Assembly: GCA_002457315.1 (NCBI GenBank)
Contig: NTKI01000002.1
Location: 1 to 64,000, forward strand
Source: Rhodothermaeota bacterium MED-G19
GTDB lineage: Bacteria; Bacteroidota; Bacteroidia; Cytophagales; MED-G16
Reading direction: 5' to 3'
DNA: 64,000 nucleotides
Shown: in pieces, positions 21,956 through 45,350 of the stretch
Numbering within the stretch: position 1 is the stretch's first letter
Layout of the letters: every line of letters starts with the position of its first letter
The notes under the pieces: generated by a model
What the model saw: the letters and a program-made list of their open reading frames with translations, nothing else
What the model was told of the DNA's origin: nothing
Databases searched by the model: none
Made by a program: the position numbers and the translations under genes

Positions 21956-21958
21956 TTT

Positions 21959-22633: not shown

Positions 22634-23376
22634 CTATTTGATAGTAAAATTTGATTTTGATTTTTTTTTATAAATGGTAAGTAACAATCTAAATAATTTT
22701 TTAACATATCATTAAGACCATTTGCGGTTATAGTTGCACCTGACATACCATCCACTTCATGAAAAGTTAAATTAATATTATTTTCTTTTTTTAACATTTT
22801 AATGGAAACTAAATCTCCCAATTCATTAAATATTTTTTTTCCCTTGTACCTGTCTTGTATCTCATCAGAAGAAATTCTAGCTCCTAGACCTGGAGTCTCT
22901 GTCTTGTGATCAAAAGCTACACCAACAACTTGATTTAGATCTTTGTCTAGAGCAATAAAACCAGATATCCAATCCCAAAGACCATTACCAAACATTGGAA
23001 AAATATAAAAATCAGTAGAACTTCCGTTATCACTATACATAAATACTGGATATAACCTATCGTCTTTATCAATCTTATAATTCTTTCTGACATCTACCTC
23101 TTCAGCGACATAGTTCCCTCCATCTTCCTTAAGTAACTCATCTCCATTTATATCAAGTACTTTAGAGGTCATTCTATTGTCATATGTTTCTAAAATTTCT
23201 TCAGGATTTAGAGAAGAAATATCCATGACAGCACCAAGAATTCTCCTCTTAGTATCAATTTCAACTTGAACTTTTTGAATTGGAGCTAACTTCATTCTTG
23301 TGAAAGAAAGTAATGTCCCAAAAAATATGGTCATAATTAGGGTGAATATTATAATATATGTATTAGACTTTTGCAC
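22630..23376 (-). CDS. nqrC: Na+-translocating NADH:quinone reductase subunit C
   Basis: The 248-residue subunit has one N-terminal membrane anchor (YIIIFTLIMTIFFGTLLSFT, about 7-26) and a periplasmic FMN-binding domain. The covalent FMN attachment motif is DGMSGATIT near residue 213, with the threonine as acceptor; attachment needs the flavin transferase ApbE, which is not in this window. TETPGLGARI is the second family signature. It overlaps both neighbours (4 bases with nqrD, 14 with nqrB), typical of a tightly coupled operon. Confidence 0.95.
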   Translation of the reverse strand: MQKSNTYIIIFTLIMTIFFGTLLSFTRMKLAPIQKVQVEIDTKRRILGAVMDISSLNPEEILETYDNRMTSKVLDINGDELLKEDGGNYVAEEVDVRKNYKIDKDDRLYPVFMYSDNGSSTDFYIFPMFGNGLWDWISGFIALDKDLNQVVGVAFDHKTETPGLGARISSDEIQDRYKGKKIFNELGDLVSIKMLKKENNINLTFHEVDGMSGATITANGLNDMLKNYLDCYLPFIKKNQNQILLSNR

Positions 23377-24577: not shown

Positions 24578-25932
24578 TACCCTTCTTTTAACATATTTAA
24601 TCCTTTCCTTAATAATAATTGAAGTTCATTTTTTGAGACATCAACAAATTCACATAGAGCAATGTCCTCTTCCACTAATTCATAAATTCCTAACTCCTCC
24701 ATCTCATCATAATCTTCTGCTAGTATGGACTTAAAAAGATAAGTTGGTAATATATCCATTGGTAAAACTTTCTCAAAAACACCAGATTGTACAAAAGCCC
24801 TTAATTCTCCATTAATATTTGTATCTAGATTATATTTTTTATTTGGTGATAGAAATGAGAATAAGCCAAATGCTCTTTGAAAACTAAGCTTATTAAATAC
24901 TGGCATAATCCAACCAAGAAAAGTATGATCATCCCCTTCAGGAATTATAGTAACCATATTATCATAAAATCCTAAATACCCATGATATCCAATTGAGGTG
25001 CCAGTTAGTACATTACCAGAAATAACTCTTGTCTTTCTTTCTTTGACTTTTGATTTAATTAAATCCATTACTGAGAACCCAGATAAACATCTATAATATT
25101 TAGGATTATCAATGCATGAACCAACAAGAGAAATTATTTTTGATGCATCATAAATTCCTTGATTAAATAATTTACCAATTTGAATAAGTCCAAATGGTGA
25201 GATTGACCACACGATATCATTCTTATTAACCGGATCAATATGATGAATTTGTACACCAACATTTCCTGAAGGATGAGGACCAGAAAAAATATTGTTTTCA
25301 TACTCATCATTATTAAAAATTTTAATTGATTCAGAATTGTGATTCAAGTGAATCTTACCTTCAGTAAGCCTACTTAATACATTTAACCCAGTTTTAATAT
25401 TATCTAGTTCTTCATTATACATAAATTCAAAAGATGGGGCAAGTGGGTTTGTATCAAAAAAAGAAACATGAATAGACTTAGGCTCTACATTAGTCTCTGC
25501 TACTAAACCGAAAGGTCTTTGTATGATATTTGGCCAAACTCCAGATTTAGATAAATGTTTAACTATTTTTTCTCTAGATAAACTTTTAATATCGGAACTA
25601 TTAAATGTTTTATATTTTATGTACTTGTTTTTTTTATCTGGTAAGATCCTAATTTCTTCTAACCTCCTTTTTTCGCCTCTTACTATATCTATAATCTCAC
25701 CACTAACTGGTGAACAATACATAATATCTTCTTGTAATTTGTCAAATAATATTGGGAAACCAGCTTTTACCTCTTCACCAATTTCAACTAATAGTTTTGG
25801 CCTAGTAATACCTATAAAATCAGTGGGCTTAATCGCAAATGAACTTTGATTAAAATCATTACCTATTTCAGTGACAGCTCTACCTTCTAAATTAATATTG
25901 AATCCTCTATTAAGATTGAATTTTAGGGACAT
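24577..25932 (-). CDS. nqrA: Na+-translocating NADH:quinone reductase subunit A
   Basis: The cytoplasmic subunit of Na+-NQR, 451 residues, first gene of the operon. The N-terminus FNLNRGFNINLEGRA and the barrel-sandwich segment PKLLVEIGEEVKAGFPILFD followed by MYCSPVSGEI are characteristic. GPHPSGNVGVQIHHIDPVNK and the C-terminal CEFVDVSKNELQ (near the end) also match the family. NqrA helps form the quinone site. A -7-like TATTTTTG lies 31 bases upstream of the ATG. Confidence 0.96.
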   Translation of the reverse strand: MSLKFNLNRGFNINLEGRAVTEIGNDFNQSSFAIKPTDFIGITRPKLLVEIGEEVKAGFPILFDKLQEDIMYCSPVSGEIIDIVRGEKRRLEEIRILPDKKNKYIKYKTFNSSDIKSLSREKIVKHLSKSGVWPNIIQRPFGLVAETNVEPKSIHVSFFDTNPLAPSFEFMYNEELDNIKTGLNVLSRLTEGKIHLNHNSESIKIFNNDEYENNIFSGPHPSGNVGVQIHHIDPVNKNDIVWSISPFGLIQIGKLFNQGIYDASKIISLVGSCIDNPKYYRCLSGFSVMDLIKSKVKERKTRVISGNVLTGTSIGYHGYLGFYDNMVTIIPEGDDHTFLGWIMPVFNKLSFQRAFGLFSFLSPNKKYNLDTNINGELRAFVQSGVFEKVLPMDILPTYLFKSILAEDYDEMEELGIYELVEEDIALCEFVDVSKNELQLLLRKGLNMLKEG

Positions 25933-26010: not shown

Positions 26011-26685
26011 TTATGAAAATTTATTCTTTATTAAATCAATTATTTTTTTTATTTGCTCATCTATTTCTAAGCTGCTAGTATCTATAATTATGGCATCATC
26101 TGCAACTCTTAGTGGGCTATCTTTTCTATTAGAGTCTTTACTATCTCTTTCAGTCAAATTTTTTAAGACATCACTATAAGTTATATCTGGATTATTTTTT
26201 TTCATATCCTCAAATCTTCTTTTAGCTCTTACATCAATATCTGCAGTCATAAATATTTTTATCTCAGCGTCAGGAAAAACAATTGTGGTTATATCTCTTC
26301 CCTCAACTACAATTTTTTTTCCTTTTCCAATTTCCTTTTGAATTGAAACAAGATATTCTCTAATTATTGATATTGAGCTGTACTTACTAACAAAATTTGA
26401 TATTTTTTTTCCTCTAATTTCTTTCTCAACATTTTCATTATTTAAAAATGTATGTTGTTGACCATCCACATAATGAAAGGTAATGTTGATGTCATTTAAT
26501 TTGTCTTTTATTAAATCTGTTTCATTATGAGATATTTCATTTCTCATCAGATACAATGTTATTGCCCTGTACATAGCTCCAGAGTCTAAGTATTTATAAT
26601 TAAAATATTCAGCTACAAACTTTGAAGTAGTACTTTTACCACAACCGGAATGACCGTCTATAGCTATTATTATATCTTCAATCAT
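26011..26685 (-). CDS. cmk: Cytidylate kinase
   Basis: It phosphorylates CMP and dCMP using ATP. The 224 residues have the P-loop IAIDGHSGCGKSTTSKF (about residues 7-23), the CMP-binding YLDSGAMYRAIT and KIVVEGRDITTIVFPDAEIKIF, and the lid region AKRRFEDMK with TERDSKDSNRKDSPLRVADDA, all standard for bacterial Cmk. It overlaps the MORN-repeat gene by 8 bases and is the last gene of the fabH transcript. Confidence 0.96.
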   Translation of the reverse strand: MIEDIIIAIDGHSGCGKSTTSKFVAEYFNYKYLDSGAMYRAITLYLMRNEISHNETDLIKDKLNDINITFHYVDGQQHTFLNNENVEKEIRGKKISNFVSKYSSISIIREYLVSIQKEIGKGKKIVVEGRDITTIVFPDAEIKIFMTADIDVRAKRRFEDMKKNNPDITYSDVLKNLTERDSKDSNRKDSPLRVADDAIIIDTSSLEIDEQIKKIIDLIKNKFS

Positions 26686-28171
26686 ATTTTTCTTTATTTA
26701 TTTCTAAACCTCTTTTACTAAAAGTGTACCAATACCCAACTCTTGTGTTTTTATTATAATTTCCAATTATTGACTCTTTTCCATTTAAATGAAATTCCTT
26801 ATAAACTCCATTCAAATATCCGTCCTTATAATTTGAAATTGAAAATAAAGAACCATTATCATAGTAATCCAATAACTCTCCATTACCATCTTTTAAGCTT
26901 CCTGAGCTCACACTAGATCCGTCAGAAAGATAGTAATCTGTGACATTAATTAATCTACCTAAATTGTAAGTTTCTTCTAACTTCAAAGTACCGTCTCTAT
27001 GAAATCTGCCCCATAATCCATTTTTTAGACCAAAAGAGTAAGAACCTATTTCATCAAGCTGCCCTTCCTCATAATAAAAAATCCATTGATCTATTTCAAA
27101 ACCATTTTTATAAATCCCTTCTGAGGATATATTACCAGTTCTATGGAAAAACTTCCAACTTCCATCCTGAAAATCATTATTAAAATTGCCAATTGAAAAA
27201 ATAGTTCCATCTTCTCGGTAAGTCTCCCACAGACCATCCTTTAAACCATTTTTAAAATTACCTTTTACACTTATTGTGCCATCGGGCAAGAATTCATTGT
27301 ATTCTCCTTCTTGTAAATTATTATTGTAATAATACGACTTTGCTAACTTCCTATTATAATAATATTCATTAAAAAATCCATCTTTTATTCCATTAGAATA
27401 AGACTCTTCTTTTTTAATAATATTAGTATTAGGATAATAATAAGTCCACTTTGAATTAGGCAAATCATCTTTATATCTTTTAAGAAAAGATATATTCCTA
27501 TTTTGACCAAATTCAGTCCAGACACTATCTCTAAATCCTAATTTATAGAAACCTCTTAAGGCAACTCTACCATTATAATAAAACTCTAAATACTCTCCAT
27601 CTATTTTATTTTTTAAATAACTAGCTTTTGAAACAATTGTACCAAAATCATCATAAGAAATTAGATCACCATGTAGTAGACCATCAACATTATAATTAGA
27701 TATTTCTTTTATATTTCCACTTCTAAAAAAATAATTCCACTGTTTATATCTCTTACCATTTAACATCTCACCCTCAGTTTCAATTTCACCATTTAAATAA
27801 AAAGTTTTCCATATTCCAGTTTGAATATTTTTATCAAATTTTCCAAGAACTTTAATTTTACCGTGAGAATAATATTCTACAAACGTCCCATCAAGGTAAC
27901 CTTCTTCAGAATAGGAATAATTTGACATTAATTTTCCATTGTCAAAAAAAACATACCATTTTCCAACTGGTTTTAATCTATTAAACTTCCCTTTTATTCT
28001 AATATTACCTAAACTATCTCTAGAGATATAGGAACCATCTTCATCTTTTTCACCTTTTTTATAAATAGAAATGATTTCAGGATCACTTACAGGAATAAAA
28101 AGCTTTTGAGAATAAGCATTTATATTAATAAAGGAAATAATTAATAATATTTTAATATTAAAATTCACCAT
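26678..28171 (-). CDS. Secreted MORN-type repeat protein (YwqK-like)
   Basis: The start is ATG at 28171, giving a signal peptide (FNIKILLIISFININAYSQ); the frame continues upstream but only into sequence overlapping fabH. The mature part is about 18 tandem units of roughly 22-24 residues. A typical unit is G-x-W-x-x-[FY]-x-x-[DN]-G-x-[IL] followed by a K/E-rich strand; examples are GKWYVFFDNGKL, GIWKTFYLNGEI, GLWETYREDGTI and GLWGRFHRDGTL. Such MORN-variant repeats make long beta solenoids. The function is unknown: family names mention toxin-antitoxin, but nothing here supports that. It overlaps fabH by 7 bases and cmk by 8. Confidence 0.87.
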   Translation of the reverse strand: MVNFNIKILLIISFININAYSQKLFIPVSDPEIISIYKKGEKDEDGSYISRDSLGNIRIKGKFNRLKPVGKWYVFFDNGKLMSNYSYSEEGYLDGTFVEYYSHGKIKVLGKFDKNIQTGIWKTFYLNGEIETEGEMLNGKRYKQWNYFFRSGNIKEISNYNVDGLLHGDLISYDDFGTIVSKASYLKNKIDGEYLEFYYNGRVALRGFYKLGFRDSVWTEFGQNRNISFLKRYKDDLPNSKWTYYYPNTNIIKKEESYSNGIKDGFFNEYYYNRKLAKSYYYNNNLQEGEYNEFLPDGTISVKGNFKNGLKDGLWETYREDGTIFSIGNFNNDFQDGSWKFFHRTGNISSEGIYKNGFEIDQWIFYYEEGQLDEIGSYSFGLKNGLWGRFHRDGTLKLEETYNLGRLINVTDYYLSDGSSVSSGSLKDGNGELLDYYDNGSLFSISNYKDGYLNGVYKEFHLNGKESIIGNYNKNTRVGYWYTFSKRGLEINKEKYD

Positions 28172-29160
28172 CTTATTAACGCAGAAGCCCATGTAAACCC
28201 ACTGCCAAATGCAGCTAAACATAAAATATCTCCTTTTTTTAATCTTTTCTCATCTAAAGCTTCTTTTAAGGCAATTGGAATTGAAGCTGCAGTTGTATTC
28301 CCGTACTTCATTATGTTATTAAATACTTGTGAATTTGATAAGCCTAATCTACTTTGAATGTACTGACTTATCCTCAAATTAGCCTGATGAGGAATCAACA
28401 AGGATATGTCTTTTGAAGAAAGATTTGAATAATTTAATGCCTCATTAATAACTTCTTCAAATCTTAAAACAGCATTTTTAAAAACAAAATTACCATTCAT
28501 TTTTGGTGAATAACCTGTACCGTCTTCGGTTTTATCTTTAATGATTTTATCAATCCAAAATGTAGTAGCTGGTTTGATTAAAGCTAATTCCTCTGCATAT
28601 TTTCCTTCCGAATGAAGATGAGTTGATAAAATACCCGAACTACTTTTACTAGATGATAATACAACCGCACCTGCTCCATCTCCAAAAATTACTGAAACAG
28701 CTCTTCCACGTGATGTTTTATCTAAGCCTCCAGAATGAATTTCACTTCCGACTACTAAAATATTTCTATACATGCCAGACTTTATATATTGATCAGCAAT
28801 TGATAAGCTATAAAGAAAACCAGAACATTGATTTCTGACATCTAAAGCTCCAACTTCATTTATACCTAAATTTCTTTGTAACAATACACCAGATCCAGGA
28901 AAATAATAATCTGGACTTAATGTAGAAAATATTATAAAATCTATATCTGCATTTTTCAAACCTGCATCTTTAATAGCATTTTCAGCTGCATAAGTACCCA
29001 TTAATGATGTAGAAGTTTTGCTGTCATTAACCCATCTTCTTTCTTTTATTCCTGTCCTTTCTTGAATCCATTCATCTGATGTCTCCATTATTTCCTCTAA
29101 ATCCTTATTTTTTACAATATTTTCTGGAACATAATACCCGACCCCTGTAATCTTTGACAT
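28165..29160 (-). CDS. fabH: 3-oxoacyl-[acyl-carrier-protein] synthase III
   Basis: It condenses acetyl-CoA with malonyl-ACP to start fatty-acid synthesis. With ATG at 29160 the protein is 331 residues and the catalytic cysteine (RNQCSGFLYSL) is residue 112; the His (IPHQANLRISQ) and Asn (YGNTTAASIP) of the triad follow. TSDEWIQERTGIKERRW is the classic N-terminal signature. An ATG at 29166 is possible, but the promoter's start point would fall about there. It heads an operon with the MORN-repeat gene and cmk. Confidence 0.96.
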   Translation of the reverse strand: MSKITGVGYYVPENIVKNKDLEEIMETSDEWIQERTGIKERRWVNDSKTSTSLMGTYAAENAIKDAGLKNADIDFIIFSTLSPDYYFPGSGVLLQRNLGINEVGALDVRNQCSGFLYSLSIADQYIKSGMYRNILVVGSEIHSGGLDKTSRGRAVSVIFGDGAGAVVLSSSKSSSGILSTHLHSEGKYAEELALIKPATTFWIDKIIKDKTEDGTGYSPKMNGNFVFKNAVLRFEEVINEALNYSNLSSKDISLLIPHQANLRISQYIQSRLGLSNSQVFNNIMKYGNTTAASIPIALKEALDEKRLKKGDILCLAAFGSGFTWASALIRW

Positions 29161-31798: not shown

Positions 31799-32851
31799 TT
31801 AATTTTCAATTGTTATGGATCCAACTCCACCTGTTGCTTCCCAAAAATTGTAAAGATGAGACCCATCATCTTCTTTTTTTGAAAACCATTCAGCAGTAGC
31901 ATCTACCCTATTCCACTCATCCTCAGTCAATGGATTATCTGTAAGTACAACAATCAACAACTTAAAATTTTTCTGTGCATTATTATTATTAGGAACTCTT
32001 TTTCCGAGAAAATCTTCCAAAGATCCTGGATTATAAGTTGTTCTAGTAGAAGCAGTAAAATCAAAGGTGTTATTATTTACAGCAAGAGATGTTATATCTG
32101 TAAACATGTCAAAGTCAGTGACAGATGAAAGTGGTAGCATACCCATAAGATATAATTCTAATTCATTATATGGTATGGAATTACCTCCATTAGCATTAGG
32201 TCCAAACGCATCAACAGTATATGAATTTCCACCATGCTCTACTAAAGAACTTTGTTTAAATCCCCCCAATTGTCCTTTTGTACTTCCTCCAGTAAACCCC
32301 CAGTGACTTCCATAAAGGGATGATGTTATGTTTGATCCAGCATTATCTACACTATGAGTTGGGAGAGCAAAATTTGCCCAATTATGTGCTACTTCATGAA
32401 GTGCGGGTCCATATTTTAAATATTCTAACGCAGTTAATTCCATCACAGCTTTTAGTTTACCTGAAGAACCATATTCAGCCGAATTATCATAAATATTTAA
32501 TCCTATGCCTTCGACATCATTAGAAACTCCAATCAAACTACCATAATATGAAGGAGATGATGGTTTATCAAGTTCATTCAAGACTAAAAAAATAAAATCG
32601 TATTTATCTGGAAATTTTTTGTAAATATCTTGAAAGAGGGCATGTCTTTTTTCTGTGTTATAAAAGTCATTATTATTTAACCAACTATTATACTCACTTG
32701 AACTCATAAGTAAAGAGGAAACTCTATTATTCGAATGTAACTCAAACTCATGTAAGGTATCCTCATCTGGATAAGGTAATATTTCATCCTCATCCTTTGA
32801 ACATGAAAATACTATTAATATAATTAATAAATAAAAAATTATTTTTTTCAC
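31799..32851 (-). CDS. Zincin-like lipoprotein (putative metallopeptidase)
   Basis: The 350-residue protein has a lipoprotein signal (FYLLIILIVFSC, lipid Cys about 17), followed by an Asp/Glu-rich tether. About residue 150 is ALHEVAHNWANF, an HExxH zinc-peptidase motif, with a candidate third ligand in YGSHWGFTGG some 30 residues on. The later part includes NELELYLMGMLP and a low-complexity Asn-rich stretch. I do not recognise a named family. It probably faces the periplasm or cell surface. It lies downstream of the DUF1080 gene on the same strand. Confidence 0.65.
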   Translation of the reverse strand: MKKIIFYLLIILIVFSCSKDEDEILPYPDEDTLHEFELHSNNRVSSLLMSSSEYNSWLNNNDFYNTEKRHALFQDIYKKFPDKYDFIFLVLNELDKPSSPSYYGSLIGVSNDVEGIGLNIYDNSAEYGSSGKLKAVMELTALEYLKYGPALHEVAHNWANFALPTHSVDNAGSNITSSLYGSHWGFTGGSTKGQLGGFKQSSLVEHGGNSYTVDAFGPNANGGNSIPYNELELYLMGMLPLSSVTDFDMFTDITSLAVNNNTFDFTASTRTTYNPGSLEDFLGKRVPNNNNAQKNFKLLIVVLTDNPLTEDEWNRVDATAEWFSKKEDDGSHLYNFWEATGGVGSITIEN

Positions 32852-32896
32852 AAATACTACATTTTATTTAGTTACAATTTTAATTCATTTTTTTAA

Positions 32897-33661
32897 TTAT
32901 AATTTTCTAATCCAAATATTTCTAAAACTGACTGGGTTGCTATGGTCTTGTAGCTTAATTGGTAACTTAGGAGGATGAGCTTTATATTCTGGATAACCAA
33001 TAAATTTTACATAGCCTTGAATTTGAGAGTTATTTTGAATTAAAACACCATTATGAAATACAGTAATGTATGCTGGTGATTCAACTCCACCTTTTTCATT
33101 AAAAACTGGAGCTTTAAATATTATATCATATGTCTGCCACTCACCAGGTTTTTTTGAAGCATTAACCAAAGGACTATGTTGTTTATATACACTACCAGCC
33201 TGACCATTAGAATAAGTCCTATTATCATAAGAGTCTAAAACTTGAATCTCATATCCAGTATCCCCATCTTCAGTGTTTTCCATAAAGTAAACTCCACTAT
33301 TACCTCTATTTTGACCATCTCCCTCAATTTTAACTGGAGACATAAATTCTACATGTAGCTGACAACTGCCAAAAACCTCTCTACTCAATATATCTCCTGT
33401 TCCAGGTTTTACAGTAAAATACCCATCTTTAACATCCCATTTTGCAGGGTCTCCATTTTTGTGAACCCATTTATCTAAATTTAATCCATCAAATAAAACA
33501 ATTGCATCTGAAGGAGCATCTCCGAAGGAATTTCCCGGAGTAACAATTTTTGGTTCAGGATCCCAAATTTCGCTTACTTCCCAGGCTGTCATTTTAACAT
33601 CTTGAGAATATATAATTCCAATCGTTAGAAAATATAAAGGTAATAGAATGCTTTTCTTCAT
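32897..33661 (-). CDS. Secreted DUF1080 (3-keto-disaccharide hydrolase-like) protein
   Basis: The 254 residues begin with a signal peptide (LLPLYFLTIGIIYSQ). The lectin/glucanase-like fold shows FDGLNLDKWVHKNG near residue 55, VKDGYFTVKPGTGDILS, a FMSPVKIEGDGQNRGNSGVYF strand pair, YEIQVLDSY and the terminal ISFRN-like PVSFRNIWIRKL. DUF1080 members include enzymes acting on 3-keto-glycosides; the activity here is inferred only from the fold. It sits 7 bases downstream of the large propeller gene at 33669, in one minus-strand run with the zincin-like lipoprotein. Confidence 0.88.
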   Translation of the reverse strand: MKKSILLPLYFLTIGIIYSQDVKMTAWEVSEIWDPEPKIVTPGNSFGDAPSDAIVLFDGLNLDKWVHKNGDPAKWDVKDGYFTVKPGTGDILSREVFGSCQLHVEFMSPVKIEGDGQNRGNSGVYFMENTEDGDTGYEIQVLDSYDNRTYSNGQAGSVYKQHSPLVNASKKPGEWQTYDIIFKAPVFNEKGGVESPAYITVFHNGVLIQNNSQIQGYVKFIGYPEYKAHPPKLPIKLQDHSNPVSFRNIWIRKL

Positions 33662-33668
33662 TTTTTAA

Positions 33669-36476
33669 TTAGTTAATTTCAAACTCAGTAATTGAGTATT
33701 CTTCTAAGTTAGTTACTTTTATTTTATACTTTCCTTTCGATAAATATTTTTCCTCATTTTGATTATACAAATTGTTTTCAATAAAATTTAACCCGTAATC
33801 TAATTTACGTTTTTCATTAAAAATCACTTCATCATTGCTAGTAATAGCTAAATCTATTTCCTGATCAGAATCAGAATAAATAACAAATTGTATAGAGGGT
33901 TCTATAGTTTGACCAGACCAGTTTTTCGAACCCCATCTATTTGAAAATTTTATCTTATCATTCTTGAAAAGATATAAGCTTTTGGATAATATAGTTTCAT
34001 CAATTTTTTGTAAATGAGACATATCAGCTATATAAACAGATCTGCCATGAGTACCAACTACTAAGTCATTATCCCTAGGGTGTATAACTAGGTCATGAAC
34101 AGGCGCACCAGATAATCCTTTTGAAAAGGGGCTAAACGTATTTCCAAAATCTAAAGATGCATATACACCATGATCTGTTCCAACATAAATCAAACTCTCA
34201 TTTTCATTATCCTCAATGATTACATTCACAGGTTCTGTCGGCAGGTTATGACCAATTTTACTCCAATTCAAACCATAATCTTCAGATACATATACCATTG
34301 GAGAGAAATCATCCCACCTATAACCATTTAATGCCAAATAGACTCTACTCTGTTTAAACTTGGAAGGGAAAATTCCGCTAACCCACATATCATTAGGTAA
34401 AGATGAAGAAATGTTATTCCAAGAGACACCTCCATCTTTAGAAACATGAACAAGACCATCATCACTACCAACATAAATCAGTCCAAATTTTAAATCTGAT
34501 TCAATTATAGTAGTTAAGGTTCCATAACTTACATTTCCTTTAATTCCCCCATTAGTTAAATCATTTGATAAAGTTTCAAAATTATCACCTTGATTAAGAG
34601 ATCTATGAAATTTATTTGATCCCATATATAAAATATCTTGATTATGTCTAGACAAATAAATTGGTGTCTCCCAATTCCATCTATATGGTCTCTCTCCAAG
34701 CTTATGGGATGGTGTTATTCTTTTTCTTTCTCCAGTTCTAGTATTAACTCTAGAATAATTACCAAACTGTGAGCCCGTATAAACAGTTTCGTTATCTCTA
34801 AAATCTATTTCTGTTTGCATTCCATCACCACCATAAATTGATTTCCATGGATATTTACCAGAACTATGCCATCTTAAGCTTGAGGTGTAATTTGATGGTC
34901 CCATCCAAACTCCATTATCTTGAAAACCACCGTAAACATTATAAGGTTTTTTCATATCGATATTTATGTCATAAAACTGACCAACCGAAGGACTATTATA
35001 TTTCATCCAATTATCTCCATCATCGTAACTAATATTTACGCCTCCATCATTACCAACAATTAAATGACCTGTTCTATTTGGATTTAACCATAAAGCATGG
35101 AAATCCCCGTGCATATTTTCATAATCAATTGATTCCCAAGTCTTACCATAATCATTTGATTTAACAATTGGGACTCCCATTGTATATACTTTAGCAGGGT
35201 TTTGAGGGTCAACCCTAATCTCTCCAAAATAATATCCATAAGAATAAAATAAATTAAATAAATCATCTTCATTGACTTTCTTCCACGTATTCCCATAATT
35301 TTCTGACATATAAACTTCCGCCCCAATTACAGGAGTATCATAAAGTAAAGTATTTGAATCTTCTAGATATTCTACCAATGAATAAGGTAGTATATCACCA
35401 TTTTTAATCATAGATCTTATTATAGAAACAGAATACTTTGAAGGAAAACGATTATCTCTTAAAAACTTGTTTATCTTCTTATTAGAAATTTTTAAAAAAT
35501 TTTCTACACTTATCTCTCTAAGTTGACCTTTAGTTAAATCATTATTAACATTAACTTCTTCAATTTCTTTTCTATCCTGATTATCTAGAATAGCATATAA
35601 AATATTTGGATTTGACCTAGAGATATCAAGGCCTATTCTACCAGTGCCTTCTGTATCGGGGAAGCCGCTAGATCCACCAGAAATTTCTAACCATGTTGAA
35701 CCACCATCTGTGGATTTATAAATACCTGACCCCAAACCAGCACCATCAAAATTCCAAGCTTTTCTATCTTTTTCCCACATAGAAGCATACAATATATTAG
35801 GATTTGATTCATCAATTATTAAATCAATTGCACCAGTCAGGTCATTTACATACAAAGTTTTTTTCCAAGTTTCTCCTCCATCAATAGATTTATAAACTCC
35901 TCTTTCAATATTTTTTGAATAAAGATGTCCAAGAGCTGCAACCCATAAAACCTTTGAATTATTAGGATGTATTATAATCCTTCCTATGTGATGTGAGTCA
36001 TCAAGTCCAATATGAGTCCAATTTTTTCCATTATCAACTGATTTATATATACCATTTCCAGAATAAGAGGACCTACTTGAATTATTTTCACCAGTACCAA
36101 CATATATTATATTTTCTTTCCAGTCAACTTTAATATCACCAATAGTCATAACCACTTGGTTATCAAATAAAGGTGAAAAAGTATTACCATGATTTCTTGT
36201 CTCCCATAAACCTCCAGAAGCATAAGCAACATAAAAATGTGTTGGATCTTCAGGATTAATATCTAGATCAACAACCCTACCACTCATAACGGTTGGACCT
36301 ACATTCCTAAAACTAATATTTTTAAGAAATGATATATTATTTAATTTACTGTTGTCAGAGTTAAATCTTTCAAGAGCTGATGTTGATTTAGGAAAAATAT
36401 TTTTTTTATTTTTTTTTTGTGCGTAGGAAAAATTAAAAATTAAGAGGAGAATAAATAAATTTAAAAGTTTAATCAT
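33669..36476 (-). CDS. Large secreted Asp-box beta-propeller protein (VPS10/sortilin-like)
   Basis: The 935-residue protein has a signal peptide (LLNLFILLLIFNFSYAQ). There are at least nine Asp-box-like turns (S-x-D-x-G-x-x-W/F), among them SVDNGKNWTHIG, SIDGGETWKKTL, STDGGSTWLEIS, SEDYGLNWSKIG and SLDFGNTFSPFS, arranged as in ten-bladed sortilin/VPS10 or exo-sialidase-like propellers. A C-terminal domain (about 835-935) is beta-rich. No type IX sorting domain is recognisable. The function is unknown; related proteins are annotated as glycosyl hydrolases on weak grounds. It is a diverged paralogue of the protein at 37377. Confidence 0.85.
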   Translation of the reverse strand: MIKLLNLFILLLIFNFSYAQKKNKKNIFPKSTSALERFNSDNSKLNNISFLKNISFRNVGPTVMSGRVVDLDINPEDPTHFYVAYASGGLWETRNHGNTFSPLFDNQVVMTIGDIKVDWKENIIYVGTGENNSSRSSYSGNGIYKSVDNGKNWTHIGLDDSHHIGRIIIHPNNSKVLWVAALGHLYSKNIERGVYKSIDGGETWKKTLYVNDLTGAIDLIIDESNPNILYASMWEKDRKAWNFDGAGLGSGIYKSTDGGSTWLEISGGSSGFPDTEGTGRIGLDISRSNPNILYAILDNQDRKEIEEVNVNNDLTKGQLREISVENFLKISNKKINKFLRDNRFPSKYSVSIIRSMIKNGDILPYSLVEYLEDSNTLLYDTPVIGAEVYMSENYGNTWKKVNEDDLFNLFYSYGYYFGEIRVDPQNPAKVYTMGVPIVKSNDYGKTWESIDYENMHGDFHALWLNPNRTGHLIVGNDGGVNISYDDGDNWMKYNSPSVGQFYDINIDMKKPYNVYGGFQDNGVWMGPSNYTSSLRWHSSGKYPWKSIYGGDGMQTEIDFRDNETVYTGSQFGNYSRVNTRTGERKRITPSHKLGERPYRWNWETPIYLSRHNQDILYMGSNKFHRSLNQGDNFETLSNDLTNGGIKGNVSYGTLTTIIESDLKFGLIYVGSDDGLVHVSKDGGVSWNNISSSLPNDMWVSGIFPSKFKQSRVYLALNGYRWDDFSPMVYVSEDYGLNWSKIGHNLPTEPVNVIIEDNENESLIYVGTDHGVYASLDFGNTFSPFSKGLSGAPVHDLVIHPRDNDLVVGTHGRSVYIADMSHLQKIDETILSKSLYLFKNDKIKFSNRWGSKNWSGQTIEPSIQFVIYSDSDQEIDLAITSNDEVIFNEKRKLDYGLNFIENNLYNQNEEKYLSKGKYKIKVTNLEEYSITEFEIN

Positions 36477-36528
36477 AATTGTAAGGGAATTAGGTTTACA
36501 TTGTTAATAAAAATTAAATATATAAAAA

Positions 36529-37209
36529 TTGCAGCTATTTTACACATCAAGGGCAGACACTACTGTTTTAGAACAAGATGAATTCATCCATTGCACTAAA
36601 GTATTAAGAAATAGAGAAAATGATAAAATTTTATTAACAGATGGAAATGGAAATTTATTTGAATCTAGAATATTAAAAATAAAAAAAAATCATTGTGAAA
36701 TTGAAAGTTTAAAAAAAATAAAAAGTATAGAAAAAAATAAAAAAAATCATCTTGTATTAGCTGCTATTAAAAATCAGAATAGATTAGAGTGGATGGTTGA
36801 GAAATTGACGGAAATAGGTATAGACGAAATTACATTTATTAAAACAACAAACTCTGAAAGATCTAAGATTAATTATAGTAGAATTGATAAAAAAATTATA
36901 TCAGCATTAAAACAATGCAAATCATTATTCAAACCAAAAATTAATAAAATAATCACTCTAAATGAGTTCTTAGGTTATGATTATGAAACTAGTAATAAAT
37001 ATATTGCTGACCTATCTTCAAAAACGAAAATGAAAAAAAACATTAAGGATAAAGTTTCTATAATTATGATAGGACCAGAAGGAGATTTTACAAGAAAAGA
37101 AATAGATATGATATATAAAAAAGGATATAAAAAAATAACATTAGGAAACCAAGTACTTAGATCTGAAACGGCTGCTGTTGTTGGAGGTTTTTTATTAGTA
37201 AATAATTAA
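36529..37209 (+). CDS. rsmE: 16S rRNA (uracil1498-N3)-methyltransferase
   Basis: It methylates U1498 of 16S rRNA. It is 226 residues with a TTG start: translation from 36529 gives MQLFYTS, the expected family start, and no ATG or GTG is well placed. The SPOUT-knot motifs are IMIGPEGDFTRKE, KITLGNQVLRSETAAV and VGGFLLV at the C-terminus. AIKNQNRLEWMVEKLTEIGIDEI is another family segment. It diverges from the propeller gene on the left and runs towards tRNA-Lys, which is on the other strand. Confidence 0.94.
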   Translation: MQLFYTSRADTTVLEQDEFIHCTKVLRNRENDKILLTDGNGNLFESRILKIKKNHCEIESLKKIKSIEKNKKNHLVLAAIKNQNRLEWMVEKLTEIGIDEITFIKTTNSERSKINYSRIDKKIISALKQCKSLFKPKINKIITLNEFLGYDYETSNKYIADLSSKTKMKKNIKDKVSIIMIGPEGDFTRKEIDMIYKKGYKKITLGNQVLRSETAAVVGGFLLVNN

Positions 37210-37213
37210 GAAG

Positions 37214-37286
37214 TGATTGGCCTGGGTCTCGAACCCAGGACCCTCTCCTTAAAAGGGAGATGCTCTACCAACTGAGCTAGCCAATC
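37214..37286 (-). tRNA. tRNA-Lys (anticodon TTT)
   Basis: The minus strand folds into a complete 73-nt cloverleaf. The 7-bp acceptor stem pairs GATTGGC with GCCAATC; the D arm has GCTCAGTTGGTAGAGC; the anticodon loop is CTTTTAA (anticodon TTT); the T arm is CTGGG-TTCGAGA-CCCAG; the discriminator is A. The 3' CCA is not encoded. It lies between rsmE and the second propeller gene and is transcribed towards rsmE. Confidence 0.97.
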
Positions 37287-37376
37287 ATCCAAACAATGGA
37301 ACGCGCAAAACTAGAAAATGTTATTGAAATTACAATAATGAGATTAATATTATTTGAAAATTGTTATATTAAAATA

Positions 37377-39983
37377 ATGAAAAAGATAAATTACCTGGTA
37401 TTAGTTTTAATTTTAATCTCAAATATTTCATTTTCTCAACAGAAAATATCTCCATTGGTAAATTCTTTCAAAGAATATAAGTCACTTAAAAAAGAGACGT
37501 CATATAATATGAGTTGGGTGTCTTTAGGTCCTGTTTTAAATTCTGCAAGAGTAGAATCTGTACAAGTAGATGAGACAAAACCTGGGACCATGTATGTAGC
37601 ATTTGGCTCTGGGAACTTATGGAAAACAACAGATAATGGAATATCATGGAAACCTATTTTCAATGATACCCCTTCTATAGGAATTGGTGACATTGCAATT
37701 GCTCCATCAGATAAAGATATTATCTATGTAGGTACAGGAGAAAGTCTTAAAAAAGGGAGAAATTTTACAATGCCAGGAACTGGTATTTACAAATCTATTG
37801 ATGGAGGGGAAACTTGGAACCATTTAGGACTAAATGACTCTTGGCACATAGGGGAAATATCTATTAACCCATCAAATCCAAATATAGTTTTTGTTAGTGT
37901 AATGGGACACTTTTGGAGTAAAAATAATAATCGAGGAGTTTATAGAACAACTGACGGAGGAAAGTCTTGGAAAAAGGTATTATATGTTGATGAAATGACT
38001 GGGGCAAATGATATCGTAATATCGTATTCAAATCCAAATATTATTTATGCTTCATTATGGGAAAATTATCCCGGAATAAGTGGAAGAAAAAGTGGTATTT
38101 ATAAAAGTATAGACAACGGAGAATCTTGGAATAAAATGGAAAATGGACTCCCGTATGGTGATAAAATGGGGAGAATAGGCCTAGCAGTATCCCATTCAAA
38201 TCCTGATAAAGTTTATGCATTAATTGATAATTTATCTAAAGAGAGAAATCATGCAGCAGAAGTATACTCTACTGATAATGGAGGAATAAACTGGTACAGA
38301 ACTCATGAAAAAGAACTATTAATTTTTCCAGGTATTGGCTGGTACTTTGCTGACATTTATGTTAATCCTTTGGATGATAACGAGATATATTCTCTTGGTG
38401 TTAGAGCTGCTTACAGTAATGATGGAGGGAAAAGTTTTAAAAATTTAAATGGTACTGTTAAAAGAATAAACCCCAGTCAAGCAAAAGGGTTACACCTTGA
38501 TCATTGTGAGTTGTGGATTAACCCAATTAACCCTGAGCATATTGTTTTAGGAAATGATGGTGGGGTATTTGTGAGTTACAATAAAGGTAATTCATGGCTT
38601 CATTATAATAATATTCCTACAGGGGAGTTTTATGATATTGAACTAACAAATGGATCACCTTACTTAATTTATGGTGGAACGCAAGACGACGCTACTGTAT
38701 ATGGACCTCCAAAAGAATGGAAAAATAATAGTGAAGATAAATGGAAATATTTATGGATAGATGCATGGGACGGTGGAGATGGTTGCATAACTCAGGTTGA
38801 TCCATCAGATAATAATACTGTTTACTTTAGTATGCAAAATGGTGCAATAAGAAGAAAAAACTTGAAGAAAGGTCTTTCGGTCTCCATAAAACCAAAATTA
38901 CCTAAAAATATAAACGATACTTTAAAATATAATTTCATAACACCATACTTTATATCAGAACATAACCATAACACTCTTTATCATGCAGGTAATTATGTTT
39001 TTAAGTCAACAGATAAAGGAAATAATTGGGAAGTAATCAGTAATAAACTAACTAAATCAAAAAATTCTCAAAAGTTTGAATCACATTCAGCTGGAGCAAT
39101 TGCTGAGTCTAAATTATCAAAAGGACTAATATATTATGGTACTGATAGAGGAGTATTTTGGTACACAAAAAATGATGGTAGAAAATGGCATGAAAATTCA
39201 GAAAATATATCGAATGGATATATCAGAAGTATATTCCCATCTCAATTTGAAGAATCAAGGGTTTATATGGCAATGACAGGAATAAATTATGATGACTTAA
39301 ATAATTACTTATATGTTTCTGAAAACTATGGAAAAAACTGGAAAAAAATTAAAGGCAACCTGCCAAATGAACCTGCAAATGTTATAATCGAAGATTACAA
39401 ATATGAAAATGTTCTCTATGCTGGACTTTACAGAGGAGTATATATTTCATTAGATAGAGGTAATTCATGGGAGATAATAGGAAATAATTTTCCAATGAGT
39501 AGCGTTTCCGATATAGAGATCCATAAAGAAACTAATGATATGGTAGTTTCTACTCATGGCAGAGGGATATACAAATTGAATTTAGATCCAATTCATAATC
39601 TAATATCTAGTAATAATATTGAAGATAAAGATATGATTCTTAGTACCGGTGAATTCTTATTACCAAAATTTAATGATACTCATAGAGAGCCATTAATGCA
39701 CTCATATGAAAACGTTCCTATTACTTTCTATTTAAATAATTCAAAAGAGTATTCATTAATTATAAAAGAGAAAGATAAAGAGATTTGGAAAATGAATGGA
39801 ATTGGTGAAAAGGGAATAAATCAAATCAGATGGGATTTAATAATAGAAAAAAATAATAGCCAAAAACCATACTATATTCATTTTAATAAATTTATTTCAA
39901 CTGGGGATTATAATTTAATTTTAAAAACTGAAAATTTAATTTTAGAAGAAAAAATTACAATAAATGAATTTAAAAATCTTTAA
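37377..39983 (+). CDS. Large secreted Asp-box beta-propeller protein (second paralogue)
   Basis: It starts at the ATG at 37377, which gives a clean signal peptide (INYLVLVLILISNISFSQQ); the frame is open upstream to 37296 but that part borders tRNA-Lys. The 868 residues repeat the Asp-box pattern seen in the neighbour: TTDNGISWKPIF, SIDGGETWNHLG, TTDGGKSWKKVL, SIDNGESWNKME, SENYGKNWKKIK and SLDRGNSWEIIG. Shared segments such as GTGIYKSIDGGETW and LPNEPANVIIED (LPTEPVNVIIED in the neighbour) show common ancestry. A C-terminal beta domain (about 760-868) follows. It lies outside the cytoplasm; substrate unknown. It overlaps the next gene by 20 bases. Confidence 0.85.
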   Translation: MKKINYLVLVLILISNISFSQQKISPLVNSFKEYKSLKKETSYNMSWVSLGPVLNSARVESVQVDETKPGTMYVAFGSGNLWKTTDNGISWKPIFNDTPSIGIGDIAIAPSDKDIIYVGTGESLKKGRNFTMPGTGIYKSIDGGETWNHLGLNDSWHIGEISINPSNPNIVFVSVMGHFWSKNNNRGVYRTTDGGKSWKKVLYVDEMTGANDIVISYSNPNIIYASLWENYPGISGRKSGIYKSIDNGESWNKMENGLPYGDKMGRIGLAVSHSNPDKVYALIDNLSKERNHAAEVYSTDNGGINWYRTHEKELLIFPGIGWYFADIYVNPLDDNEIYSLGVRAAYSNDGGKSFKNLNGTVKRINPSQAKGLHLDHCELWINPINPEHIVLGNDGGVFVSYNKGNSWLHYNNIPTGEFYDIELTNGSPYLIYGGTQDDATVYGPPKEWKNNSEDKWKYLWIDAWDGGDGCITQVDPSDNNTVYFSMQNGAIRRKNLKKGLSVSIKPKLPKNINDTLKYNFITPYFISEHNHNTLYHAGNYVFKSTDKGNNWEVISNKLTKSKNSQKFESHSAGAIAESKLSKGLIYYGTDRGVFWYTKNDGRKWHENSENISNGYIRSIFPSQFEESRVYMAMTGINYDDLNNYLYVSENYGKNWKKIKGNLPNEPANVIIEDYKYENVLYAGLYRGVYISLDRGNSWEIIGNNFPMSSVSDIEIHKETNDMVVSTHGRGIYKLNLDPIHNLISSNNIEDKDMILSTGEFLLPKFNDTHREPLMHSYENVPITFYLNNSKEYSLIIKEKDKEIWKMNGIGEKGINQIRWDLIIEKNNSQKPYYIHFNKFISTGDYNLILKTENLILEEKITINEFKNL

Positions 39984-40677
39984 TATTTCAATATTTGTCT
40001 TTTTATTTTTTCCAATAATTCTAAAAGGAAAGAATGATCTATTAAATGCTGGTGATTCCCTATTTAAAGAAGAAAAATATTACGATGCAAAAAAATATTA
40101 TGACAGCATATTTTATAATAAAAATATGTTTAGTTATAGCATGCTATTAAAGATGTCTTTTATTGAAGAACGTTTAGGAAACTTTGAGAGAAGCATATAC
40201 TATTTATCATTTTATAAAAAAAGAAAAGAAAATATAGAGGTAAATAACTCATTACAAAACATTATAGATAACAATAAACTAAAAAGTTTTGAAAATTCTG
40301 ATTTTGATTTTTTTGAGGGTAAATTTTTAATTAATAAATATCATATAATTTATTTACTTCTATCTATTTCAATCTTAATATTCACATATAATATTTATAG
40401 AATTTATAAAAGAAAAAAAATCAATTATATAAAGTCTTTCTTCTTGGTAAATATGTTTTTGCTATTTGTACTTAATTTTAAAAATAATCCTTCAGGAATA
40501 ATCTCAAATAACAACACATTTATTATGTATGATCCCTCATCTGGATCAGATGTACATAGTATAATTAATAAAGGTGAAAAAATTGAAATTACAGGTGAGA
40601 CAGATGTCTGGTATGAAATTATAATTGATAATGAAAGAAGATATATAAGGAAAAAGAATTTATTAAAGATTAATTAA
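39964..40677 (+). CDS. TPR plus membrane plus SH3-like protein (BatE-like layout)
   Basis: The 237 residues have an N-terminal signal or anchor (FNISIFVFLFFPIILKG), a TPR-like section (about 25-85: AGDSLFKEEKYYDAKKYYDS; MLLKMSFIEERLGNFERSIYY), a polar linker, two membrane segments (IIYLLLSISILIFTYNIYRI; SFFLVNMFLLFVLNF) and a C-terminal SH3-like domain (about 175-237, with GEKIEITGETDVWYEIIID and RRYIRKKNL). This order resembles BatE proteins of Bacteroidota aerotolerance operons, but no batA-D is nearby, so the name is not assigned. It overlaps the propeller gene by 20 bases, so they are likely cotranscribed. Confidence 0.72.
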   Translation: MNLKIFNISIFVFLFFPIILKGKNDLLNAGDSLFKEEKYYDAKKYYDSIFYNKNMFSYSMLLKMSFIEERLGNFERSIYYLSFYKKRKENIEVNNSLQNIIDNNKLKSFENSDFDFFEGKFLINKYHIIYLLLSISILIFTYNIYRIYKRKKINYIKSFFLVNMFLLFVLNFKNNPSGIISNNNTFIMYDPSSGSDVHSIINKGEKIEITGETDVWYEIIIDNERRYIRKKNLLKIN

Positions 40678-41544: not shown

Positions 41545-42711
41545 ATGAGTAAAGATATTATAAATCAGCTTGGAGAAAATCGAGAAGAGTATTTTAACGC
41601 AGCTATACCTCCAATTTTCTCAAATTCTAATTTTTTATTTTCTAAGGTAGAAGACATGCGTTCAGCTATGATCAATAAAAACAATATTCCTTTTTACACT
41701 AGAGGTCATAATCCTACTACAAGAATATTTGAGAAAAAAATTGCCGCATTAGAAAAAACAGAAAATGCTATAGCTCTCAGTAGTGGAATGGCTGCAATTT
41801 CATCTGCTATACTTTCTCAAATAAAGAGTGGTGAACATATGATTTCAATTAATCAACCCTATACAGGAACTGACATGTTCATGAAAAATATATTACCAGA
41901 TTATAACATTGATATCTCGTTTATTAATGGAGAAAAAAAGGAAAATTTTGAAAATAAAATCAAAAAGAATACTAAACTTATTTACCTTGAAAGTCCAAAT
42001 TCATGGACTTATGATATGCAAGATTTAGAAAAAATTTCAAAGATTGCTAAGTCAAATAATATCATTACTATAATAGACAATAGTTATGCCTCTCCAATAA
42101 ATTGTAATCCTTCATTGTGGGGAATAGATATAATAATTCATTCAGCAACTAAATATATTGGTGGTCATGCTAATGCGATGGGAGGAGTTATTTGTAGCAC
42201 AAATAAGATAATTAATCAAATTTATAATTCTCAATTTAAACTCATTGGAAGTGTTTTATCTCCATTTCATTCATGGCTTTTTATTAATGGGTTAAGAACG
42301 TTAAAAATTAGGATGAAATATGTAAGTGAGTCTACGCCTAAAGTTGTGAGTTTTCTCGAAAAAGAATCAAAAATTAAAAAAGTACTTTATCCTCACTCTA
42401 AAGATTTTAGTCAAAAAAATCTTGTCAAAAAATATTTAAAGAAACCATGTGGTCAGTTTACTTTAGTTTTAAATACTAAAGATGATAAGGAAATAGAAAG
42501 ATTTTGCGATAATCTATCTCATTTTAGAATGGCTGCCTCATGGGGTGGACATGAATCATTAATTTTTCCTGAAATTGCAAGGTATAATAAGGAAAGCGAA
42601 TACTATTCAAAAACTGAGCTTCTCCCAAAAAATTATATCAGATTCTATATTGGATTAGAAGAGACAGACTTAATAATTGATGATATCAAAAATTCTTTGA
42701 GTAAAATCTAA
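41545..42711 (+). CDS. Cys/Met metabolism PLP-dependent enzyme (cystathionine gamma-synthase/lyase family)
   Basis: The 388 residues fit trans-sulfuration enzymes: [20 protein letters not shown] (about 52-71), [14 protein letters not shown] (PLP phosphate site), [29 protein letters not shown] (the Asp binding the pyridine N) and [18 protein letters not shown] (the Schiff-base Lys). [17 protein letters not shown] near the end is also typical. Which member it is (gamma-synthase, lyase or sulfhydrylase) cannot be read from sequence. It is preceded by a 58-base gap shared with the SDR gene. Confidence 0.9.
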
Positions 42712-45350
42712 AAAACAATTGTCACAGACCCTTTATATTCAGACTTGGAATACTTAATATAATAATAATACACACCTGGAGATCTATTGCTGCCATCCCA
42801 CTCAAAAAACTTATTGCTAGATTTATAAGCTTCAACTCCAGTCCTATCTACAAAAACAATTGACTCAAAATTATCATCACAGCCGTCTAAAGGTAAGTTC
42901 TGTGAAGGAATTGATAAATTAGTTAATGAGAACACATCATTTATCCCATCTCCATTAGGACTGAAGGCATTTGGAGGATTAAATATATCCCAGTTAACTA
43001 TAGGTTTTTCTAATAAAAATTTAATTTGCTTAGTATATTCACTATAATATGGACAGCTATTATCTTGTACCCTAAAAGTTAGATTATATCCTTTAGAAGT
43101 AAAGTCACTATTCAAAAATTCACAAGTTGGATTCCAAGTAAGCTTACTGGTTACCTCACCAACACCAGAAGATTGAGCAAAAACAAAATCACCAGGTAAT
43201 CCTTCAGAAATCAATTCTAATAAAATTAGGTCATTATCCTGATCTATAGCATTAATATCTATCTCAAATGGATTATTAACTGTCATTACATATTCATTTT
43301 CATTTGTAATTAAAGGAGTATTATTCTCGTCAATATTAATTTTAAGAATTAGCTGGATAGTATCCGGGTTTGATTCTTGACAGTAATCAATATCTTCAGT
43401 AATAAAATTAATTTTGTATTCATTTATATCTTTATAAGGGAAATTTACACACTCAAGATCTACATTAAATTGACCTTCAATATGTCCAGTTTGAAAGTTA
43501 TTTACTGAAAAAGTAGAATTTATATCTTCTAAATTAAATCCTATTCCATTTGCTGACATAATTAGAGTATCATTGTCTTGATCATCTGAGAATAGTTTTA
43601 AAGAGAATAAACCTGAAAGATCAGTTTCATATTCAATAATTGAAAAATTAGGTCTTGAATTGACTGAATCAGTTATCTGCATATCTGCTGTCAACTTAGG
43701 TCCAGAGTTCTGTGGTAATTCTACTCTTAAATCATAATATATTGTATCCTGATTAAACTGTTCACATGTATCCAAATCATCTAGAACAATACCAATCATA
43801 AAACTATCTTTATCTGAATAATCAAAATTTCTACAGTCAGTATCAAAACTTAGAGTAGAAGAAATAGAGCCAGCTCCACTCTCAGATACGTTAAAAGAGA
43901 TGCCATAATCTTCAATATTATATTCTGGTTTTAGAGGAACAATAAAATAATCCAAACTTAGAGAATCTAAATCTACATCTTGACCCTCAATTAAAGTTGA
44001 GTATTGTGAATTCCAAGATACAGTAACAACATTAGTATCTTCTTGATTTAAAAAGAAAGGGTCTTTATTAGTTGGAGGCTCTACTATAATTGTAACTCGA
44101 ACTGTATCTCTTTGAGGTAACGGGCATGCATCATCAGCTGCAATTAAATCTATCAGATAAGGTTCGTTCTGAACATATGGGCAATCTGAAACACAAACCT
44201 CTACTTTTAGAGTATCCCCAGAAGAGTTAATAGAACCCTCACTAAATGAAAAAATATCAGATAAATCTGTACTTCCTCCTTTACCAAAATTAACCCCTTC
44301 AGCAGTTAGAGTAACATTTGTTCCTAAATCATCAGTAACAAATAGCTCAAAACATTTTGGTTGTGACGCAACATAAATAATGGTGTCATCTTCCTTATAA
44401 AAATCAAGCTGTCCAGGAATTTTAACTAAAGCTTCAGGAGGATCGGGTGGGTTACATCCATCAACAACCAACATCTGGAAATCTCTGCGAGACTCTCCTA
44501 TCTTAATACCATTCCTATATTCTTCAGCTCTGACTGAGAAAACATATAATCCCACTTCAGACGGAGTCACTGTTATAAACCCTTCGTTTGAAATTGATAA
44601 TGACGGATTTCCAGGAATCATACTAGCTAGATCATAACCAGGAGCAAAATTAACTATAGGATGAGGAGGAGGTGTAGTCGGTGGCAACGCTTGTATATCA
44701 CCATTATTATCTTGTTTATCATCTAGAGGCGCAGCAAGTGAATAAGCAATTGAGTCTCCATCATCATCAGTACCTGCGAAATCTATGTAGAATAACTGAT
44801 TAACGCAAGCATAATCACTAAGAGGAGGAAATAATTTTGGAGAAGAGTTTACAAATGGTTTACCAGTTGCGTCTACTACAGGAGGAAAATATAAAGTATA
44901 GGTCATCCCATTAGTGTCAGGATTAATTAAATTTTTTATGGCTGCGTTTCTACAACACCTTTCCCACACAATTACGTATCCATCTGGATCATTATATATA
45001 TCTGGATCTAAAGTTATTTCATGAGAATATTCTACCTTATCGGTACATAAGAAACCTAAAGCACAGTCAGGATTAGTATAAGGAACATTCTCTGTCTTTG
45101 TAATAACCATAGTACCATTTCTCATAAACTGACCATCTGATTTTCTGAAAATAGTATATATTACCAGGTCATCAGGTCCTGGATTCGATGTCTGAGCACA
45201 ATCGAAATACTGAATTAATTTAACTTGATAAGTAAATGAGTTCTCATCCCCGATGTGAATCATTTCTATTTCACCTCCTACAATATGAGCTGCTACAACA
45301 TATTGAATTGGAATTAAAGAAATAAATAAAATTAAGAAGGTCCTTAACAT
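42708..45350 (-). CDS. Secreted protein with type IX secretion (gliding motility-associated, CHU_C) C-terminal domain
   Basis: The 880 residues begin with a signal peptide ([19 protein letters not shown]) and a conserved N-terminal region ([34 protein letters not shown]). The middle is repetitive and acidic, in beta-sandwich units of about 110-120 residues containing DxDxD-type turns ([24 protein letters not shown]). The C-terminus [28 protein letters not shown] and [10 protein letters not shown] is the type B sorting signal that directs proteins through the type IX system. It is probably a large surface or extracellular protein; ligand unknown. It overlaps the PLP gene stop by 4 bases. Confidence 0.87.

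Follow-up and report, generated by a model that had tools for sequence, protein, structure and literature searches.

The region from position 31,799 to position 40,677 most probably consists of two independent envelope-protein modules that abut by chance at a tRNA gene, a reading to which we assign a probability of roughly 0.7. The first module would run divergently from rsmE and comprise PropA, then the gene for a DUF1080 protein and, optionally, the gene for a surface lipoprotein behind it. The second module would comprise tRNA-Lys, PropB and an SH3-like membrane protein. The region is part of the window (the whole stretch of 64,000 nucleotides that was analysed), which comes from a genome of 1.32 Mb that is 87% complete. 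The features of the region are as follows.

31799..32851, minus strand: zincin-like lipoprotein, probably exposed at the cell surface (350 aa, start codon GTG; Cys17-S-K-D-E; H152-E153-x-x-H156-x-W158, H183, E232)
32897..33661, minus strand: DUF1080 protein of the 3-keto-disaccharide hydrolase family (254 aa; PF06439; PDB 4qhz; N-terminus judged signal-like by eye)
33669..36476, minus strand: PropA (propeller A; 935 aa), secreted protein with Asp-boxes that probably forms a tandem 7-bladed propeller
36529..37209, plus strand: rsmE, 16S rRNA (uracil1498-N3)-methyltransferase (PF04452, PF20260)
37213..37286, minus strand: tRNA-Lys (TTT)
37377..39983, plus strand: PropB (propeller B; 868 aa when counted from the likely start), secreted protein with Asp-boxes
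39964..40677, plus strand: SH3_3-like membrane protein (237 aa; 20-base overlap with PropB)

Genes of the region

The open reading frames, the profile matches (PF06439 for the DUF1080 protein and PF04452/PF20260 for rsmE) and the tRNA-Lys (TTT) confirm the genes that the earlier note had named in this region, as well as its statement that housekeeping RNA genes, rsmE and tRNA-Lys, lie between the two propeller genes. Its description of the proteins as secreted or surface-located is supported, with signal peptides judged by eye only. The mechanically called ORF of PropB starts at 37296 and encodes 895 aa, and its alignment with relatives, which begin at the position equivalent to 37377, indicates that the latter is the most likely start. 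The protein encoded at 39964-40677 had been described as a TPR/SH3 membrane protein overlapping PropB. The overlap is present and the SH3_3 match is weak (23.4 bits, cut-off 27), while the TPR label is unconfirmed, because the TPR families gave no match to this protein in a Pfam profile search. Short intergenic gaps were rejected as evidence for an operon, because gaps of 10 bases or less, overlaps included, make up 29 of the 40 gaps between same-strand genes in the window.

The sole match in the genome to PF14322, the SusD family for which it was searched, is located on contig C25, outside the window. The earlier statement that SusC/D is absent from the locus thus holds for its SusD part, which rests on PF14322. 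A polysaccharide utilisation locus was rejected, because a PF14322 match is absent near the locus. Elsewhere in the window, the region 21341-25932 contains genes for a Na+-translocating NADH:quinone reductase (NqrA domains, an Rnf-Nqr subunit and an FMN-binding subunit; three proteins were scanned), and the region 26678-28222 encodes a 514-aa protein built of MORN_2 repeats.

Gene order within the genus, the family and the order

The gene order was compared in 15 genomes of the family, which represent three genera. Among the 12 genomes of the genus to which the window belongs, PropB is detected in 11, the DUF1080 gene in 10, and PropA and the lipoprotein gene in six each. In all six genomes that contain PropA, it is transcribed away from rsmE, and PropB lies on the other side of rsmE. 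The site is intact but without PropA in four genomes (G001, G006, G008 and G010), where the DUF1080 gene abuts rsmE, and the lipoprotein gene is missing from an intact site in G003, G004, G008 and G011. The contig of G005 stops at PropB and its tRNA, and PropB, the DUF1080 gene and the lipoprotein gene were all not found in G009, which is 54% complete. Absence counted by genome is soft as compared with absence from an intact site, because most of the family genomes are incomplete. The conserved gene order within the genus runs on into the housekeeping flanks, which are co-linear as well, and it is therefore not specific to the block.

Several irregularities were observed in the relatives. In G003, PropB is complete on C34 and is found again on C60, where the contig end cuts it, which may represent a strain mixture or a second copy. 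Ambiguous bases, seen as X residues, occur in the contigs L061, L065 and L069. In L069, moreover, a separate hslV ORF was not seen beside a lengthened ORF that matches pdhC.

The two halves of the block are found apart in the other two genera. In the second genus (G012 and G013), rsmE, PropA and the DUF1080 gene form one intact group, and tRNA-Lys, PropB and the SH3 gene form another. The lipoprotein gene of these two genomes sits on another contig. In G012, it is located behind the genes for a gamma-glutamyltransferase and a penicillin amidase, and its neighbours in G013 equal those of G012 in length. In the third genus (G014), tRNA-Lys, PropB and the SH3 gene are intact and PropA is present only as a fragment at a contig edge, while the DUF1080 and lipoprotein genes were not found. 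The number of ORFs that separate rsmE from tRNA-Lys is six in G012, four in G013 and two in G014. These extra ORFs suggest that the rsmE/tRNA-Lys junction, which corresponds to positions 37209-37213 of the window, is an insertion-prone spot at the tRNA.

Within each half, the gene order is retained more strictly. The tRNA-Lys gene precedes PropB in all 13 family loci that were run through ARAGORN (L071 was left out), as compared with neither of two loci from another family analysed with the same program. The SH3 gene follows PropB in all 14 family loci with a continuing contig, the window included, and rsmE stays with PropA/DUF1080 within the family. The PropA and DUF1080 genes are adjacent and co-directional in all eight family genomes that show both, which belong to two genera, and the spacing between them is 7-10 bases in seven of these eight. 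The earlier note had held that free separation of the genes as unrelated neighbours would speak against its proposal. The genes largely do separate in this way, with the PropA-DUF1080 pair, adjacent within the family, as the exception.

That proposal was a single extracellular scavenging or surface-processing locus. In a scavenging locus as we considered it, glycopeptides or glycosides would be captured or processed by the propellers, the DUF1080 protein and the metallopeptidase would finish the task, and the housekeeping genes would lie between them by accident. A single locus is consistent with the exported appearance of all of these proteins, with the retention of the block in most of one genus, and with the surroundings of the paralogous propeller genes in the genome, several of which lie beside or near genes for degradative enzymes: a sulfatase and a GH109-like oxidoreductase for the paralog on C11, an amidohydrolase and an S9 peptidase for that on C12, a PIG-L deacetylase for that on C7, and a penicillin amidase two genes away from that on C3. 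Against it, the sister genera have the two halves apart, intact sites may lack PropA or the lipoprotein gene singly, the association is absent outside the family, and the synteny within the genus, which reaches the housekeeping flanks, is unspecific. A single locus is thus not supported, and we consider it unlikely. As a locus, the block is ordinary, consisting of neighbours that share an envelope destination, and it provides an example of a genus-conserved block that could be mistaken for a pathway.

The order sample comprised 241 genomes, 226 of them outside the family, which were searched at E-value thresholds of 1e-150 for PropA, 1e-50 for the DUF1080 protein, 1e-130 for PropB and 1e-8 for the lipoprotein, with three candidates scored per genome in the PropA and PropB searches. 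Outside the family, relatives of PropA are present in 77 of the 226 genomes (about a third), and DUF1080 proteins of the window type are present in 99. Both are found together in 35 genomes as compared with 33.7 expected (OR 1.1, P=0.78). Six of these 35 genomes have both genes on the same contig, where the nearest pair is 614 kb apart, and 29 have them on different contigs. In these 29, the extent of the contigs limits the distance over which closeness of the two genes can be ruled out. A propeller gene was found in none of 20 fetched DUF1080 loci from outside the family, and none of the DUF1080, rsmE, SH3, hslV and lipoprotein genes was found in 20 fetched PropA loci from outside the family. 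PropB is present at more than 50% identity in three of the 226 genomes, in other surroundings in all three, and at 37-41% identity in nine further genomes among the 226. The lipoprotein is present in only one of them, as part of a 969-aa protein. In a wider contig scan, a DUF1080 gene adjoins five of 38 lipoprotein loci, and these five are the same genus site again and not independent cases, since their contigs agree in length with contigs of the genus.

These results also bear on the possibility that PropA and the DUF1080 gene form a two-gene operon, in which PropA presents or trims a glycan, the DUF1080 protein cleaves its 3-keto form, and the rest of the block is a bystander. The invariable adjacency of the two genes in two genera argues for this possibility, and the pair may be a real operon within the family. 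However, the DUF1080 gene persists beside rsmE in the four genomes whose intact site is without PropA, and outside the family the two genes are unlinked and co-occur at the level of chance. We therefore regard this explanation of the region as possible but doubtful, and prefer that of two independent modules abutting at the tRNA gene.

Propellers and the DUF1080 protein

PropA and PropB contain nine and 11 Asp-box motifs respectively, as compared with means of 0.1 and 0.05 for the shuffled sequences, and share 37% identity, in agreement with the earlier description of two divergent Asp-box propellers. Both resemble Vps10/sortilin in that they give repeated partial matches to PF15902 (104.8 bits for PropA and 119.8 bits for PropB, cut-off 33). 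They also match NCBIfam NF045728 (F510_1955 'glycosylhydrolase') with 121.6 and 126.3 bits, which are under the cut-off of 175. Unlike Vps10 receptors, PropA and PropB do not have the 10CC cysteine module, because PropA contains no cysteine and the PropB ORF contains only three.

The PropA model is of moderate quality (pLDDT 69.4, pTM 0.55). When it was used for a Foldseek search, the best 22 matches were GH74 enzymes or xyloglucanases (E 3.1e-24 to 3.0e-20), while sortilin first appeared at rank 39. This ranking suggests that PropA is folded into two 7-bladed propellers rather than one propeller of ten blades, as far as a model of this quality allows. The likeness to the tandem 7-bladed propellers of GH74 (6p2l, 6p2m and 2cn2) covers the predicted fold of approximately residues 41-821 and the Asp-box repeats. 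The PropA model differs from them in a helical insert around residues 316-378 and in beta strands that follow residue 860.

The possibility that the propellers are GH74-type glycoside hydrolases, similar to xyloglucanases, is favoured by this ranking and by the VIA comparison of the PropA model with 6p2l (Z 29.4 over 593 residues, rmsd 9.3). However, single WD40 propellers reach a VIA Z of 29.3 against the same model, so that the fold of PropA says little about its function, and the sequence identity between PropA and GH74 proteins is only 12-16% in the Foldseek rows. In a weak local profile alignment (i-E 0.005), A86 of PropA aligns with a residue position occupied by Asp in 2cn2 and by Ala in 2cn3. 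We take this residue of 2cn2 to be catalytic Asp70 of the N-terminal propeller. According to the same weak alignment (i-E 0.005), this position is Ala in all 28 PropA members and Gly in all 17 PropB members, so that Asp is replaced by Ala or Gly in 45 of the 45 members examined, and the paralogs of this genome carry Ala, Thr, Val, Gly or Glu there. Asp is thus found in none of 54 propellers at this weakly aligned position (i-E 0.005), these being the 45 PropA and PropB members and nine paralogs of this genome, with the contig-cut paralog left out. GH74 activity was rejected on account of the absence of the aligned Asp, and this alternative is very improbable.

Other polar residues are highly conserved. 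D458, D477 and R812 (PropA numbering) are kept in all 54 propellers, H456 and Q519 in 53, and D520 in 52. These six residues were selected from a larger set of conserved alignment columns and represent a candidate binding or catalytic site. We infer that PropA and PropB would be periplasmic tandem-propeller proteins, which may bind oligomeric substrates or cleave them by a non-GH74 mechanism. Export of the propellers by the T9SS was rejected, because the T9SS models (NCBIfam, E<=0.01) were unmatched in PropA, PropB and seven of 10 paralogs. As a rough positive control for these models, the window protein encoded at 42708-45350 gave only a sub-threshold match to TIGR04131 (21 bits, cut-off 35).

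Matches to PF15902 were obtained for 12 ORFs of the 1.3-Mb genome, including the two propellers of the window and one ORF cut by a contig end, on contigs C3, C7, C9, C11, C12, C20 and C24. The region points to abundant Asp-box propellers, which match profiles named after glycosidases and yet lack the aligned GH74 Asp. Loose first-look counts, which are unconfirmed, give 26-52 propeller candidates per Mb in the 15 family genomes, as compared with at most 20.7 per Mb, also an unconfirmed first-look count, among 18 other genomes that were picked by eye as the densest. On L075 (3638-9833), the neighbours of a 1089-aa paralog are a sulfatase and an oxidoreductase containing GFO_IDH_MocA and GH109 C-terminal domains, the latter a type of enzyme that uses 3-oxidation chemistry. 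On L077 (5605-11906), MR_MLE (enolase-superfamily) and DUF1611 proteins precede a 1380-aa paralog on its strand.

The DUF1080 protein resembles the 3-keto-disaccharide hydrolases of PF06439, which it matches well above the curated cut-off (155.3 bits, cut-off 26.8), and it aligns with PDB 4qhz over 228 residues (E=2.3e-66). It differs from them in that the window locus has no adjoining 3-dehydrogenase gene, and in its propeller neighbour, which among the sampled genomes is confined to this family. The genome contains three further DUF1080 genes, each separated by two genes from the gene for an enzyme of interest: a GMC oxidoreductase and Gluconate_2-dh3 pair on C5, a sulfatase on C7 and a GH29 alpha-L-fucosidase on C21. 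The pair on C5 is presumably LacA/LacC-like. Several DUF1080 loci of the order have neighbours that appear Gfo/Idh-like or sugar-isomerase-like by sequence inspection. The DUF1080 orthologs of L063, L064, L066, L068 and L069 are 295-297 aa long and have a different N-terminal extension with two cysteines, while that of the window protein is short. The copies in L117 and L118 are also long, with 303 aa.

According to one report, BT2157 is a 3-ketotrehalose hydrolase, a periplasmic 3'-ketolactose hydrolase of the DUF1080 family is proposed for Caulobacter, and one PF06439 member is an endo-xanthanase/lichenase (PMC9007349). The 3-keto chemistry of the window protein is not certain, because some members of PF06439 act on polysaccharides. 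Nevertheless, glycoside processing is likelier than the earlier note allowed, because the DUF1080 family is the 3-keto-disaccharide hydrolase family of Pfam. The note had regarded a glycan-uptake reading as unsupported without SusC/D. Glycan processing may nevertheless occur, since a carbohydrate-enzyme family is represented at the locus and the GMC/Gluconate_2-dh3 pair, the sulfatase and the fucosidase are encoded near the other DUF1080 genes. The DUF1080 protein would act in the periplasm on 3-keto-glycosides, the products of a glycoside 3-dehydrogenase whose gene would lie elsewhere in the genome.

A candidate metallopeptidase family

The lipoprotein is the most interesting member of the block. 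Its earlier description as a zincin-like lipoprotein is supported by a lipobox-like Cys17, for which Pfam LPAM_1 gives only 16.3 bits (cut-off 20), and by an HExxH motif (HEVAH). The optimum for surface export in Capnocytophaga is reported to be C-X-K-(D/E)2-X (PMC5080379), and the C-S-K-D-E sequence of the window lipoprotein fits this optimum. The exact signal is present in two of the six lipoproteins of the genus (the window and L061/L157), and the other four deviate from it and fit loosely. A T9SS tail is present on seven of 34 alignment members. These features suggest that the lipoprotein would be flipped to the cell surface, where it may act as a metallopeptidase.

H152, E153, H156, W158, H183 and E232 are invariant in all 39 sequences. 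The scan for lipoproteins used two patterns, one around HExxH and one around H183. HExxHxW is nevertheless present in 13 sequences that match the H183 pattern alone, H183 is present in 14 that match the HExxH pattern alone, and a relative from a whole-genome search carries HEFMHNW, HWGFTGG and ELYLMG. The way in which the scan was made therefore does not account for the conservation pattern. The model of the lipoprotein is confident (pLDDT 92.4, pTM 0.88) and resembles HExxH zincins in that the motif is located on a predicted helix (residues 150-158) after beta strands. It differs from these zincins in two additional conserved residues, H183 and E232, which are located far downstream of HExxH, and in that a Pfam peptidase family is not matched above cut-off.

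The fold and profile searches gave only weak rows. Foldseek of the model against the PDB gave no match at E<=0.001, the best Z of the VIA search was 3.5, which is at noise level, and the fold search against a viral library gave noise-level rows, among them an SprT-like phage protein (E 0.9) that would be a zincin. The lack of a fold match does not by itself establish that the fold is new. The lipoprotein profile gave one weak match among PDB sequences (2ou3, E 0.012), NCBIfam only Riean_0653 at residues 1-42 (19.2 bits, cut-off 57), and Pfam no family above cut-off for the domain in the 34 members, one of which matched Reprolysin_3 with E 0.056.

The lipoprotein thus represents a candidate new metallopeptidase family. 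A broader proposal, which we advance tentatively and at somewhat less than even odds, is that the lipoprotein founds an unnamed secreted metallopeptidase family with a fold outside the PDB and a metal site made of HExxHxW together with H183 and/or E232, and that PropA represents an ortholog group with a conserved polar, non-GH74 site in its second half and would be an unrecognised enzyme or receptor. The region also points to a widespread family of HExxH lipoproteins, for which a Pfam entry or structural relative was not found in the searches made here. Members of this family are present in Bacteroidota and, according to record titles, in metagenome-assembled genomes of Neomarinimicrobiota, Fibrobacteres, Ignavibacteriae, Gemmatimonadetes and Phycisphaerae.
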